A DNA stretch of 56,081 nt from a virus: positions 1-56,081 of the IMG/VR virus record IMGVR_UViG_3300008267_000119; one strand, 5' to 3'. The translations under genes and the position numbers were made by a program. Within the stretch, counting starts at the first letter, position 1, and every line of letters starts with the position of its first letter. This document shows positions 13,539 to 21,258 of the stretch, in pieces. Below the pieces are notes generated by a model that made no database searches, was not told the origin of the DNA, and saw nothing but the letters and a program-made list of their open reading frames with translations.

Positions 13539-14444
13539 TTAGTATGTCCTTGTTTCAACCCATTTAATCCCGTTATCTGCTGGCTGATTGTGATTATTTA
13601 AGACCTTTGTTACTTCTGTCACTACATGTTCCCATGTTACTGGACCTGTTTCATCTGCATAAGGAGCTGGATCTTTTCTTCCTAACTTAAGAAATGCCTC
13701 TACTCTTTCAACTGATGAAGCTGACTTATAGTCTGAGAACCAGTGGTCAATGGTTGTGTTATCGCTTCCATCTACTATAGCAATGTGGATAGGTTTGTAG
13801 GATGTATTAGTTCTTGAATAAACTTCATCAAAACCTAATCCTAATTCTTCACACAGTACTTCTCCATCCTGTAAGATAGTAAATTTATCTCCCTCTAAAT
13901 AAGGTGTAAAGTATCCTACTCTTTCAGCATCCCAGTTACCCATTCTGAAAGCATGATCATCTGCATCTCTAAACTCTTGTCTACAATCTGGGTAAATTGC
14001 ATGATCACCTGCGTGAATACCTAAGGCAATATCACAAGTCTCACCTGTACGATTTGCAACTGATAGAGCTACTGCTTGAGTAATTGAAGCAAATATTTTA
14101 TTCCTGTTAGGAACAACTGTTGCTTTCATATTATCTTCTGCATAATGACCTTCAGGTACATCTTCTCCTCCGGTTACTAAAGCTGAATCTAATAAATCAA
14201 CTAATCCGTTTAATTGGATTTGACGGTAATTGACTGGGGCATACTCCCATTCTCTTCCTATGGTTAGTTGGGATGTATTAATGTAACCTATTAATGATTG
14301 AGCTCTTTCTAACTCTACTCTATGTTTTTGACCATAGTCAAATGAAATAGCTGTTACGCTATCATACTCTTTTATACACCTAAGTAGTAAAGTACTTGAA
14401 TCCATACCACCTGAAAGTGATACTACAACATGTTTTTTAGACAT
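13539..14444 (-). CDS. queC: QueC-like 7-cyano-7-deazaguanine synthase, zinc cysteines replaced
   Basis: A 301-residue protein with the QueC pyrophosphatase loop SGGMDS (11-16), FDYGQKHRVE, VPNRNKIF, YPDCRQEFRD (151-160) and VERVEAF (245-251). QueC converts 7-carboxy-7-deazaguanine to preQ0 with ATP and ammonia. Bacterial QueC is about 220-230 residues and binds zinc through four cysteines (TCY and CxxCxxC). Here the matching positions read NTSYKP (Ser215) and DYKSASSVER (240-247), so all four cysteines are gone. The protein is ~70 residues longer. With the DpdA-like gene at 15014 it likely supplies a 7-deazaguanine for DNA. FolE, QueD and QueE are not in the window. Confidence 0.85.
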   Translation of the reverse strand: MSKKHVVVSLSGGMDSSTLLLRCIKEYDSVTAISFDYGQKHRVELERAQSLIGYINTSQLTIGREWEYAPVNYRQIQLNGLVDLLDSALVTGGEDVPEGHYAEDNMKATVVPNRNKIFASITQAVALSVANRTGETCDIALGIHAGDHAIYPDCRQEFRDADDHAFRMGNWDAERVGYFTPYLEGDKFTILQDGEVLCEELGLGFDEVYSRTNTSYKPIHIAIVDGSDNTTIDHWFSDYKSASSVERVEAFLKLGRKDPAPYADETGPVTWEHVVTEVTKVLNNHNQPADNGIKWVETRTY

Positions 14445-15862: not shown

Positions 15863-16258
15863 TTAAAAAATATATAGTACTAATGCTATTCCTAGAAATG
15901 CTCCTACTTTATAAAAGAAGGTTTTGCGTTTCTCAACCTTTAATTGTTCAGTTAGGTCATATGTCATATGTTCATACTGTCCAATTTGTAATTCATGCTG
16001 ATGTATAATGTACTTATTGTTAGCATCTTTATCATTTAGCAATTTTATTACAGTATCTTTTTGTATATCTCTTTGCTCTAGTTTAACAACTTTCTCTTGT
16101 GTGAGTTTAAGTTCTTGCTTGCAACCATCATACCTAATTAAATCCTGTGCTATTAGACGTGCAGTCTTAGTTGGGAGTGTAACTTTTGTTGTATCTGATT
16201 GAGAAAAACTGCTCAAGTTCAGCATTAGAAAACCTACCAGCATGGTTAGCTTTTTCAT
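15863..16258 (-). CDS. spanin-like protein: signal peptide, coiled coil, C-terminal membrane helix
   Basis: A 131-residue protein with an N-terminal signal (MKKLTMLVGFLMLNLSSFSQ), a central coiled coil (LKLTQEKVVKLEQRDIQKD, then DLTEQLKVEKRKTF) and a C-terminal transmembrane helix (YKVGAFLGIALVLYIF). Proteins spanning the envelope with a coiled coil disrupt the outer membrane at lysis. It is the last gene of the block holin-like, small TM protein, this one, downstream of the endolysin. The spanin role rests on topology and position only. Confidence 0.5.
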   Translation of the reverse strand: MKKLTMLVGFLMLNLSSFSQSDTTKVTLPTKTARLIAQDLIRYDGCKQELKLTQEKVVKLEQRDIQKDTVIKLLNDKDANNKYIIHQHELQIGQYEHMTYDLTEQLKVEKRKTFFYKVGAFLGIALVLYIF

Positions 16259-16413
16259 TTGTTTGATTGTGCTGAATCTACTTTAGTCTGTAACGAATCT
16301 ATTGTAACTTTGTAACTATTGATATCAGTTGCAATGCTGCTGGTACTAAAAATATTGTAGCCTACTAATATAATCAATACAGCTAACAATATATTTTGTT
16401 TATTTTGTAACAT
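16255..16413 (-). CDS. small membrane protein in lysis block
   Basis: A 52-residue protein with one N-terminal transmembrane helix (ILLAVLIILVGYNIFS) and a short helical ectodomain (SYKVTIDSLQTKVDSAQSNK). A longer frame would use TTG at 16437. The ATG at 16413 is better because AAAGGAGA lies 7-8 bases upstream. It overlaps the holin-like gene before it and the spanin-like gene after it (ATGA), so all three are probably coupled. It may act as a spanin partner. Confidence 0.55.
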   Translation of the reverse strand: MLQNKQNILLAVLIILVGYNIFSTSSIATDINSYKVTIDSLQTKVDSAQSNK

Positions 16414-16825
16414 CTCTGTCTCCTTTATGTTTATCAAGTCTATCTAGTATTTGAGTAAGTAATTCATTCTGTACAATACCTACCATTGAGGCATTTTTAA
16501 GTACGGAGATCAACTGGAAGATAAGAAAAGGTGCTATGATTGTTTCACTTAACCAAGATGTTCCTTTAAATCCTTTCTCAATTGTTAAGATAGATGCTAA
16601 CATTACGATCCAGAAGCATAATGTTTTTAATACTTTTAGGGCCTTTTTTGTCTGAAAACCTTCTCTTTTTGTTCCTGCCCATATACCGAAGAATCCATCA
16701 GCAAAGATAACGAAACCTACTGATAGAAATTGTTCGATGTTATCTGCTGTTAGGTTCATAAAATATGTACCTACAAATGCTAATGCTGTTGTCAAGGTTA
16801 GTGTTATTATAAGAGTTGTTTTCAT
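16400..16825 (-). CDS. holin-like membrane protein
   Basis: A 141-residue protein with about four hydrophobic segments (LIITLTLTTALAFVGTYFM, FLSVGFVIFADGFFGIWAG, LKTLCFWIVMLASILTI, IIAPFLIFQLISVL). Basic loops include GTKREGFQTKKALKVLK, and the tail is charged. The layout, DxxxGIWAGxKRxGxxxxSKK-like loop and position 9 bases downstream of the endolysin fit phage holins found in Bacteroidota. The holin would permeabilise the inner membrane to release the endolysin. Confidence 0.7.
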   Translation of the reverse strand: MKTTLIITLTLTTALAFVGTYFMNLTADNIEQFLSVGFVIFADGFFGIWAGTKREGFQTKKALKVLKTLCFWIVMLASILTIEKGFKGTSWLSETIIAPFLIFQLISVLKNASMVGIVQNELLTQILDRLDKHKGDRDVTK

Positions 16826-16834
16826 CTTGTGTAC

Positions 16835-17446
16835 CTATTTAACGTATTCGTAATATTTCTTAGTCTTCTCTGAGCGATCTGCTAATCCGTGAGTACCACC
16901 GTTAATTCTTTTTGTAAGAGCTAAGATTGAAGCATCGTTAACTCCTTGGTCACATATTGACCACAATTTATTTTTATCAAAGAAAAACATTGCTGACTCA
17001 AAAGAATAAGTAGTTGCTACTAAATCTGGGTTAGTCATGATCTCTGGCTTCTTCAAGTAATCTGAAAACGCTTTGTAGTTTTCTTTTCCTGTTAACTGAA
17101 GAGCTCCTCTTCCTCTGAACTTGAATCCATCTCCAGACTTCTCATCACCATTACCCATTCTTGAAGCATAGACTCTATTTGCAATCTTTTCAGGATTTCT
17201 AGCATAAGATTCTTCTAAAGTACCTGGAAAGTATTTTCCGAATATCCCTTGAAGACCTTCTGCTGAATAGTTTAAATTTTCTGAAAACGCTTTAAACCCT
17301 CCTGTTTCATGTGCAGTTTGAGCAAAGAAGTGTGCTGCTCTTACAGGAGTTAGTTTATAAAACTCCATTGCTTTTTTCATTGTACCAGGACCAAATGCCC
17401 CATCAGCTGTTACGCCGATCTTTTCTTGTAAACTTTTTAAACTCAT
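16835..17446 (-). CDS. endolysin, GH19 chitinase/lysozyme-like
   Basis: A 203-residue enzyme with a short N-terminal peptidoglycan-binding-like segment (LQEKIGVTADGAFGPGTMKK). The catalytic domain begins AAHFFAQTAHETGGF with Glu47 in HETGG. FRGRGALQLTGKENY and a C-terminal INGGTHGLADRSEKTKKYY follow. These are signatures of the GH19 lysozyme-like family, which cleaves the glycan strands of peptidoglycan. It lacks a signal peptide and so needs the holin 9 bases downstream. Its upstream neighbour is the PAS-domain membrane protein. Confidence 0.88.
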   Translation of the reverse strand: MSLKSLQEKIGVTADGAFGPGTMKKAMEFYKLTPVRAAHFFAQTAHETGGFKAFSENLNYSAEGLQGIFGKYFPGTLEESYARNPEKIANRVYASRMGNGDEKSGDGFKFRGRGALQLTGKENYKAFSDYLKKPEIMTNPDLVATTYSFESAMFFFDKNKLWSICDQGVNDASILALTKRINGGTHGLADRSEKTKKYYEYVK

Positions 17447-17456
17447 ACTTTAATTT

Positions 17457-18566
17457 TTATTTATTACTACCTTCTTGTGTGGCATATTTAATACCCATAA
17501 TTGTACCAACTATTGAGAATGCATTAGTTAATAAGACACTAAACATGTTTGACCATGTTGAACCAATTATTTGGGTGTCTTGATCTGTTACAATGGCGGC
17601 CCAGTATAGTACAGTTGTAACAATACCAACGCCGACTATGACAGCTAACGCACACTTAACAATTATTTTTATTAACTCATTCTGACTCTTTTTCAATACT
17701 ACGTCTAAATCATTTAGAGCAGCATCCTTTTCTAATTCTATTGCGTGTTTAAGTTTTTGTGAGTTTTCCAATTCAACTGTTAAGTTCTTTGTAAGCTCAT
17801 CTATCTTCTTCTTATTGTTTACAGACTCAGTAACATCAGTTGCAATCTTAACTACATCAGTAATATTACCTTTACTATCAAGTACAGGATTGTATGATGC
17901 TTGTAAATAGACAATAGAGCCATCTACTTTTCTCCTTTCAAATATTCCATCAAAGAACTTACCCTTTCTTAAACTTTCCCAAAACTTAGTATATTCATCA
18001 GACTTTGAGTACTCATAGCTCACAAAAATACTATGATGCTTTCCAATGAGTTTACTTTTTTCATTGGCCTTATACCCCATAGTTTCTAAGAATATAGAAT
18101 TTACATCTAGTATAAATCCATCAGTATTAAAACTAATAAAAGCAGTACTTCGGTTAATTGCATCTACTTGTTTCTTGCTATTGACAATTGTTGTAATGTC
18201 AGTAGCAATCTTCATTATTTTAGTAATCTTATTATTCTCATCAAAAATAGGATTGTAAGTTGCTTGGAGATTAATAAGACTTCCATCCTTTCTTCTTCTC
18301 TCAAACTCTCCCTGGTAGTACTTGCCACTTCTTAATATGTCCCAAAATTTTTCATACTCAAGTGATCTTGAATAATCTTCACATACAAAAATACTGTGAT
18401 GCTTACCGACAAGCTCTTCATGGTTACCTGAACCATACCCCATTGTTTCTAGAAAGGTATCATTAACCCCTAATATGGTCCCACCAAGGTCAAAGTAAAT
18501 AATAGCATTACTTCTATTAATTGCTTCAAGTCTACTTAATAGTTCTTCCTTTGATAAGGTTTTCAT
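17457..18566 (-). CDS. two PAS domains fused to a C-terminal membrane hairpin
   Basis: A 369-residue protein starting MKTLSKEELL (ATG at 18566; a longer frame would overlap the preceding gene). Two PAS domains cover about 15-125 and 135-245. Each has the chemotaxis-receptor pattern AINRSxAxIxF, ETMGY, LVGKHHSIF, EFERR...DGS and LQASYNPI/V...KIATDV/I, as in aerotaxis-type receptors and BdlA. A coiled coil (250-300) and two transmembrane helices (about 300-325 and 340-362) follow. There is no HAMP, MCP, kinase or GGDEF output. It lies between a small membrane protein and the endolysin, so it may sense redox, light or a ligand and gate lysis or block superinfection. Function is inferred only. 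Confidence 0.8.
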   Translation of the reverse strand: MKTLSKEELLSRLEAINRSNAIIYFDLGGTILGVNDTFLETMGYGSGNHEELVGKHHSIFVCEDYSRSLEYEKFWDILRSGKYYQGEFERRRKDGSLINLQATYNPIFDENNKITKIMKIATDITTIVNSKKQVDAINRSTAFISFNTDGFILDVNSIFLETMGYKANEKSKLIGKHHSIFVSYEYSKSDEYTKFWESLRKGKFFDGIFERRKVDGSIVYLQASYNPVLDSKGNITDVVKIATDVTESVNNKKKIDELTKNLTVELENSQKLKHAIELEKDAALNDLDVVLKKSQNELIKIIVKCALAVIVGVGIVTTVLYWAAIVTDQDTQIIGSTWSNMFSVLLTNAFSIVGTIMGIKYATQEGSNK

Positions 18567-18567
18567 G

Positions 18568-18816
18568 TTACTCTTTATTAGAGTTACTACCTCCTTTAAA
18601 GCCAGCAAACTTCTCAATTACATCTGGAAGGAAACTTCCTAGAGTAATGTACATGAAAGCATCAAAAATATATTCATTTAGTTCTAATGCCTTACCCATG
18701 TATCCTGTTACTAGGTCTACTACGATAGCTGCTACCATTACCATAAATGACATAAAACCTATAATGGTTTTCTCATTGTAGTCATTTGATTTCTTAAAGA
18801 TGTCTTTAAATGCCAT
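18568..18816 (-). CDS. small membrane protein, holin-like
   Basis: An 82-residue protein starting MAFKDIFKKSNDYNEKTI with two hydrophobic segments (IGFMSFMVMVAAIVVDLVTG and IFDAFMYITLGSFLPDVI). The tail is polar and Ser/Gly-rich (FKGGSNSNKE). That ending resembles the QEGSNK tail of the PAS protein that follows 2 bases later. The small hairpin would suit a holin or antiholin. The ATG at 18816 is preferred over an upstream non-ATG start. Confidence 0.55.
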   Translation of the reverse strand: MAFKDIFKKSNDYNEKTIIGFMSFMVMVAAIVVDLVTGYMGKALELNEYIFDAFMYITLGSFLPDVIEKFAGFKGGSNSNKE

Positions 18817-18883
18817 AATATATTTTATTAAATTGATTAAATTATAACCTACTAATAAAACAATATTAACAAGAACCATTTGG

Positions 18884-20676: not shown

Positions 20677-21258
20677 TTATTGTTTATTAGATTTAGTTCT
20701 ATTTTCATTTATTGTTAATGGTTGGAGATTTTTATAATTCCAACACTTGTATATTTCATCTTGTTGAGTTAAATCAAAGGAATTGATAGGAATAATGTGA
20801 TCTACCTCCCAATAACTCCCATAATTTTCCCACTCCATTCCGGGTTTGAATTGGGAACTTAAATGGAATTTACATTCTTCTAAACTACAACCTAAATACC
20901 CAAATACAGAATTGATCTTGTTTGTTATAGTTTTATAAAATCTATTTCTCAGATTATGTGTTAATCTATAGATGGGATCAGTTTTCCTTTTATGTTTATG
21001 ATAAATTCTAGCATATTCCTTATCATACTCTTTATAATTTCCTCTATTCTTTTTGATAAGAGCTTTAAATTTCTCTTTATTGTTACTTATCCACTCTTTA
21101 TTTTTAATATTGATTATATCTTTTTTTTGAGTATATCTAATCTCAGATTTAATTTTTATACAAGATTTACAGATATTTTGGTAACGCTGTCTTGTGTTTT
21201 CCCAATAATAATTTTCAATTCCTTTTAATTCTTTACATTTAGTGCATGCTTTCTCCAT
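20677..21258 (-). CDS. HNH homing-type endonuclease
   Basis: A 193-residue protein with an N-terminal zinc ribbon (CTKC at 5-8 and CKSC at 30-33), a basic middle, and the HNH core WEVDHIIPINSF (H154) and NYKNLQPLTINENRTKSNK. Such free-standing nucleases cut DNA and spread by homing. It splits nrdB and nrdA, carries its own late-type motif upstream, and is homologous to the gene at 39993. Unlike its neighbours it is very Lys/Asn rich. Confidence 0.88.
   Translation of the reverse strand: MEKACTKCKELKGIENYYWENTRQRYQNICKSCIKIKSEIRYTQKKDIINIKNKEWISNNKEKFKALIKKNRGNYKEYDKEYARIYHKHKRKTDPIYRLTHNLRNRFYKTITNKINSVFGYLGCSLEECKFHLSSQFKPGMEWENYGSYWEVDHIIPINSFDLTQQDEIYKCWNYKNLQPLTINENRTKSNKQ

Follow-up and report, generated by a model that had tools for sequence, protein, structure and literature searches.

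A tandem PAS protein with a C-terminal membrane hairpin as a probable lysis-linked sensor in a phage-only family

The window analysed here, a stretch of 56,081 nucleotides of viral DNA (IMG/VR record IMGVR_UViG_3300008267_000119), encodes within its lysis cassette a protein of two PAS domains, a coiled coil and a membrane hairpin. The protein represents a large family found, among the records searched, only in phages, many of them aquatic, and its gene is an optional, horizontally spread module of lysis cassettes. Architecture and comparison lend good support to its interpretation as a lysis-linked sensor, but not to any precise mode of action. Since the sensing half resembles oxygen and redox receptors and the gene is located among lysis genes, lysis could be tied to the energy state of the host; the membrane half has no known counterpart. 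Lysis timing is known mainly from holin clocks and from lysis inhibition of the T4 type, which responds to superinfection. If the protein is a redox receptor, the tuning of lysis to oxygen or respiration in lake and sea phages becomes directly testable.

Architecture of the protein and its cassette

The gene starts with an ATG at position 18566 of the minus strand and codes for 369 amino acids (Table 1); an alternative, longer frame with a TTG start extends to 18617. Two stretches of the protein are matched by Pfam PAS_3 (E 5.6e-28) and by the NCBIfam model TIGR00229, sensory_box (E 3.4e-31). The two domains, PAS-A and PAS-B, are 56% identical and therefore look like an internal duplication. 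In the AlphaFold2 model, which is a monomer of modest confidence (mean pLDDT 68.7), the PAS pair is followed by a single helix (residues 252-327) that runs from the coil into the first transmembrane helix, TM1, and by a second helix (332-363) that corresponds to TM2. Hydropathy places TM1 at about residues 299-324 and gives a weaker, more polar TM2, and the C-terminus lies only 6-8 residues beyond it. The protein would presumably be held in the inner membrane by the hairpin, with the PAS domains in the cytoplasm.

No known output domain was matched in Pfam, PHROGs, NCBIfam or PADLOC. The MCP signalling domain gave no match within the 369 residues in Pfam and NCBIfam, the protein contains no HAMP and MCP domains downstream of the hairpin, and no PADLOC model of an anti-phage defence component matched it. 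A preliminary description of this DNA had given the gene the same coordinates, two PAS domains, a coiled coil followed by two transmembrane helices, and no known output domain, all of which agrees with these results.

Table 1. Positions of the PAS-hairpin gene, its parts, the neighbouring cassette genes and two genes of Cellulophaga phages
Feature	Coordinates	Strand	Evidence and remarks
PAS-PAS-coil-TM hairpin protein, 369 aa, whole gene	17457..18566	-	Reading frame, profile matches, AlphaFold2, 243-551 matching IMG/VR stretches
PAS-A, residues ~13-125	18192..18530	-	Pfam; H57, W75 and R90 at flavin-site positions, invariant in 69 aligned rows
PAS-B, residues ~139-250	17817..18152	-	Pfam; H178, W196 and R211 at equivalent positions
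Helical linker/coiled coil, residues 251-298	17673..17816	-	AlphaFold2; continuous with TM1 in the model
TM1, residues 299-324	17595..17672	-	Hydropathy and AlphaFold2 model
Near-invariant loop and TM2, residues 331-363 (TQIIGSTWSNMFSVLLTNAFSIVGTIMGIKYAT)	17478..17576	-	Polar/small stripe S336-N340-S343-T347-S351-G354-G358
Small two-TM lysis-cassette protein	18568..18879	-	In 66/87 loci no more than 3 genes from the PAS gene
Endolysin, GH19 chitinase type	16835..17446	-	PF00182, E 2.5e-8; phrog_181, E 4.2e-61
Holin, Phage_holin_4_1 family	16400..16825	-	PF05105, E 4.8e-6; phrog_199 holin
Two small membrane/secreted proteins (16255-16437 and 15863-16258)	15863..16437	-	Sequence only
Cellulophaga phage phi18:3 gp090	NC_021794 39102-39620 (L243)		phrog_10199/31932 pair, function not annotated; one TM, coil, PAS-like fold by structure only
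Cellulophaga phage phi19:1 gp108	NC_021799 54202-54924 (L242)		phrog_10199/31932 pair, function not annotated; one TM, coil, PAS-like fold by structure only

Upstream of the PAS gene lies the small two-TM gene, separated by 1 base and not by the 2 bases given previously; downstream, as already reported, 10 bases lead to the ATG of the endolysin gene. An alignment of homologues points to the ATG at 18816 as the start of the small gene. Its product, which had no significant match in Pfam, is a core component of the cassette (present in 74 of 79 GH19 cassettes) and may be a second holin. Directly after the endolysin gene is a PF05105 holin gene, absent from the preliminary description, on which TIGR01593 scored below its cut-off. 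The two genes that follow possibly encode a pair of the spanin type, judging from the appearance of their products; for the one at 15863-16258 there was no family match in Pfam or PHROGs.

The nearest cellular relatives of the PAS half are PAS-PAS chemoreceptors, 40-47% identical over this part, in agreement with the chemotaxis-type origin proposed earlier. They comprise MCPs of Pseudomonas and of rhizobial plasmids, a Flexithrix MCP with multiple PAS domains and an MCP with two from a Zoogloeaceae MAG. The closest solved structure, both by sequence (phmmer) and by fold (Foldseek against the PDB), is MmoS, a tandem PAS redox sensor. The FAD redox PAS domains of MmoS and NifL (3ewk, 2gj3) are the best structural counterparts of the phage PAS domains, but both proteins are histidine kinase-type regulators without such a membrane hairpin and have a different third cavity residue.

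The cavity positions were mapped through phmmer alignments and by eye. The His and Trp residues (H57/W75 and H178/W196) are invariant in 69 of 69 aligned rows, and in all 69 an arginine occupies the position of the asparagine of NifL/Aer-type FAD sites, which is absent from the phage family. In the AerC-type PAS domains (PAS_FAD2, cluster 9) a tryptophan in helix F-alpha and a histidine are conserved; the histidine is common to the AerC and Aer clusters, while conservation of the asparagine is confined to the NifL and Aer clusters (PMC10468136). AerC, which is cytoplasmic, has a pair of PAS domains that each bind FAD weakly via the shared tryptophan (PMC13401364), and FAD has been predicted for both PAS domains of BdlA (PMC8694187). 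Tandem PAS domains at the N-terminus, with invariant Trp and His and with Arg in place of a conserved Asn in both, conform to the AerC pattern, and on these residues the sensor half may be classed with the AerC-type domains (PAS_FAD2). Both cavities are predicted to be of the FAD type, although another prosthetic group is possible. Of the signals suggested in the preliminary description (redox state, light or a small ligand), redox is favoured by cavity residues of the AerC/Aer FAD kind, and light appears less likely than redox.

The phage protein shares with AerC of Azospirillum and the double-PAS MCPs of the BdlA/McpS type an N-terminal pair of PAS domains from the same subfamily, with the Trp and His and without the Asn. 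It differs from them in lacking an MCP signalling domain, in ending with a membrane hairpin and in being encoded in a lysis cassette. In Aer of E. coli, as in the phage protein, PAS is followed by a membrane hairpin; however, Aer has only one PAS domain, and its FAD-site Asn and the HAMP and MCP domains that follow its hairpin are missing from the phage protein. The two hairpins were compared only via the search of PDB chains, which gave no match.

Family, linkage to endolysins and spread between phages

Among the IMG/VR pattern matches, 243 relatives of the full-length protein were confirmed, the best 80 of which are 83-100% identical to it over the full length, and the hairpin alone matched 545-551 stretches. 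In 84,980 bacterial and archaeal species genomes, two patterns of the hairpin produced 37 matches, none of which was confirmed. The hairpin had no match at E 10 in 50,697 phage records and none below E 9 among PDB chains, and no Pfam or PHROG model covers the membrane half of the family. The family is common in metagenomes but did not appear in the isolated-phage records that were searched, which makes it an overlooked, well-defined target. The carrier phages probably infect Bacteroidota. In 15 of 87 loci the protein has a shorter form, apparently with one PAS domain and the hairpin. Apart from L143, a shorter frame, the hairpins that were examined and did not run into a contig end are accompanied by PAS sequence. 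The divergent member L158, used as a query, retrieved only itself and one copy, the peptide patterns being too specific. Contamination by host genes was rejected because hundreds of viral contigs have the gene in a phage lysis setting and its hairpin was not matched in cellular genomes. INPHARED MT836939 and Listeria phage LM 4-14-1, both unverified fragments with a PAS match only, were set aside.

Across the gene, third codon positions are about 3-4 times more variable than the other two, so that the gene is under purifying selection. Together with the full-length conservation among the best 80 of the 243 relatives, this shows that the gene is not a product of chance.

Linkage was counted over 87 distinct loci of the PAS gene. 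An endolysin gene was found at a distance of three genes or less in 71 of them, the small two-TM gene in 66 and a PF05105 holin gene in 27, and at least one of the three is nearby in 78. Endolysins of four unrelated types, assigned by Pfam and PHROGs, are involved (GH19 in 27, M15 in 23, PG-binding in 21 and GH24 in 16), and the PAS gene is found on either side of them rather than in one slot. Endolysins fill 25%, 19% and 10% of the slots at distances 1, 2 and 3, respectively, but only 2 among about 1,250 more distant slots; all 181 lysis-type neighbours are on the strand of the PAS gene. Not every phage is an independent case: shared neighbour genes (three or more) sort them into 18 groups, and an endolysin lies near the PAS gene in 16 of these. 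The link to lysis genes proposed in the preliminary description, which suggested a search for other PAS proteins with a C-terminal hairpin beside endolysins, is therefore very strong and recurs across unrelated endolysins. Neither of the outcomes that it named as contrary to the idea was seen: most homologues lie in lysis blocks, and searches of cellular genomes, phage records, NCBIfam and the PDB assigned the hairpin to no family that would point elsewhere. A search of the open-access subset of the literature revealed no papers joining PAS domains to phage lysis.

The linkage is not absolute, since approximately 7-9 of the 87 loci (~8-10%), for example L241, L213 and L224, have no lysis gene nearby. 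A divergent PAS-hairpin clade (L153, L157 and L160) occurs in a replication context, beside recombinase-like and exonuclease-like genes. The linkage could also partly reflect a favoured insertion slot among late genes.

The endolysin label switches at least 17 times over a tree built from 69 PAS genes, an approximate figure because the labels are sets and some endolysin detections may be missed. In one phage pair the PAS proteins are 87% identical and the terminases (TerL) 27%. Taken together, the label changes and this disparity indicate that the gene has been transferred between phages. It travels, yet it re-lands in, or stays with, lysis genes. Of 49 contigs searched for TerL with phrog_2, only 4 gave a match, which was insufficient for a species tree, and PF20454 found none.

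The nearest isolated relative in the lysis block is Flavobacterium phage immuto, with 79% DNA identity over endolysin and holin. It has the small gene, the endolysin and the holin in the order of the window, the PAS gene is missing between them, and a tblastn search with the PAS protein detected no relative in this phage. When the search was made from the endolysin side, the PAS gene was present in only 9 of 79 close metagenomic GH19 cassettes (endolysin 85-97% identical; 66 with at least 1.2 kb upstream; some of the 70 without the gene truncated at a contig end). Where it is absent, the slot before the endolysin is empty or contains a gene for either a 3TM protein or a secreted-looking protein of 146 residues. 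The 3TM protein (106 residues, MFSEGG...FSYYFGTK; L271:3666-3986, L298:3666-3986 and L020:3137-3457) has no family match; its gene is another optional occupant of the interval from small gene to endolysin, either as an alternative or in addition. The 146-residue protein begins like a signal peptide and is encoded in several cassettes without the PAS gene (L254:3527-3967, L274:3533-3973 and similar).

The absence of the PAS gene from 70 of 79 cassettes makes it a modifier rather than a core holin. A holin would be expected to be a constant, required part of the cassette, which this gene, also missing in immuto, is not. The holin role considered for the hairpin in the preliminary description is further weakened by the presence of a PF05105 holin in the same cassette, and no known holin family matched the protein in Pfam, PHROGs, NCBIfam or profile comparison. 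That the slot accommodates other optional genes, or nothing, is what would be expected of a hotspot flanked by the small gene and the endolysin, with the PAS gene as a neutral passenger. Such a passenger is scarcely credible given strong purifying selection over the whole protein, a near-invariant TM2, and four unrelated neighbouring endolysins flanked on both sides rather than in one slot.

The membrane hairpin and possible modes of action

The end of the hairpin is almost invariant. Amino-acid diversity, 0.13 in the PAS domains, falls to 0.000 in TM2 (residues 341-361), whereas at third codon positions TM2 (0.32) varies like the rest of the gene (0.28-0.32), which indicates selection on the protein rather than recent copying. 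The 33 residues 331-363 are identical in the best 80 of the 243 relatives, all of which carry the PAS or coil pattern, and 31 of the 33 positions remain invariant in 69 rows that include a divergent member. Some hairpin loci had been gathered with TM2 patterns; collection bias was rejected as the cause of the invariance, because the 80 loci that also carry a PAS or coil pattern still share the identical 33 residues. Of the 11 polar or small residues in 336-361, nine fall within one 120-degree sector (shuffle p 0.004 in a single post-hoc test), and this stripe includes a GxxxG motif. TM2 therefore offers a precise handle for mutagenesis and partner searches.

The neighbouring PF05105 holins, in contrast, are 56-82% identical to that of the window or unrecognised, and the small proteins fall to about 35-60% identity. 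TM2 thus more probably has another copy of TM2 or a conserved protein of the host as its partner than any single phage holin. For this reason a conventional antiholin, tied to the neighbouring PF05105 holin or to the small two-TM protein, is very improbable, although the preliminary description had raised this role. The PAS gene does adjoin the holin and small genes in a tightly packed cassette, and antiholin control of lysis is a known theme (e.g. PMC11413866); nevertheless, a PF05105 holin lies within three genes in only 27 of the 87 loci.

We favour, at a little below even confidence, an optional AerC-type module of tandem PAS and membrane hairpin that advances or delays lysis according to redox or energy state. 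The PAS domains, most likely flavin-holding, would report the redox or energy state of the infected cell, and their signal would run along the coil into TM1. The change in TM1 would alter the membrane packing of TM2, either in an oligomer of the protein or on a conserved host membrane protein, and the altered packing would advance or delay the action of the separate holin and endolysin set. The membrane topology, the oligomer, the gating and the effect on lysis are properties that we infer for the protein. A redox-gated switch, in which the cytoplasmic flavin sensor directly drives a self-assembling membrane helix and so times lysis to host respiration, is conceivable but on the doubtful side. 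It would be, to our knowledge, the first lysis regulator that reads the energy state of the cell via a dedicated sensor domain.

The invariance of TM2 despite differing or unrelated lysis partners is also what a single conserved host partner predicts. TM2 might bind an inner-membrane protein of the host, such as a respiratory or transport complex, which the PAS domains would tune by redox, either energising the cell late in infection or excluding superinfecting phages; the lysis neighbourhood would then reflect late expression only. We consider such a host-directed regulator rather doubtful. Some PAS-hairpin loci do lie away from lysis genes, but late expression alone should not link the gene so tightly to endolysins, structural late genes being far more numerous as possible neighbours.

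Alternatively, TM2 could form a pinholin-like pore or proton leak, opened by the PAS domains and coil on a redox cue, with depolarisation triggering the canonical holin. The hairpin of two helices, the helix that continues from sensor to TM1 in the model, the polar/small stripe with GxxxG over the full length of TM2, and an invariance that fits self-assembly are all consistent with such an autonomous sensor-holin, which nonetheless appears unlikely. The gene is optional and a holin is already present; moreover, comparison of the hairpin with the neighbouring small, 3TM and PF05105 holin families gave hhalign probabilities of about 1%, at low power with a hairpin alignment of Neff 1.2. Pinholins and class II holins and antiholins (phage 21, P2 LysA, T4 RI/RIII) are short and have no sensor domains. 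The PAS-hairpin protein resembles them in having a small membrane segment encoded beside an endolysin, but differs in showing no detectable homology to lysis families, in the presence of a separate holin and in being optional. We assign the protein neither to the MCPs nor to the holins or antiholins.

Tethered PAS-like folds in isolated phages and other genes

A fold search against viral models matched gp108 of Cellulophaga phage phi19:1 and gp090 of Cellulophaga phage phi18:3, each of which was identified with a gene of exactly the matching length; the two are related to each other at the PHROG level. Lysozyme or endolysin genes lie five genes from gp108 and two genes from gp090. Like the PAS-hairpin protein, both combine a membrane tether with a PAS-like fold near lysis genes, but in the reverse order (TM, coil, PAS-like) and as a fold match only, with no PAS signal by sequence in either. 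Should this be confirmed, the tethering of PAS-like domains in the vicinity of lysis genes would recur among Bacteroidota phages, and it can be tested because phi18:3 and phi19:1 are isolated phages.

Elsewhere in the window, the gene at 13539-14444 codes for a QueC-like protein, with an SGGMDS motif recognised by eye, suggesting a phage gene of the 7-deazaguanine pathway. Between two genes for ribonucleotide reductase subunits lies an Endonuclease VII/HNH-like gene (20677-21258; phrog_1035, E 4e-12), possibly a homing-type insertion.
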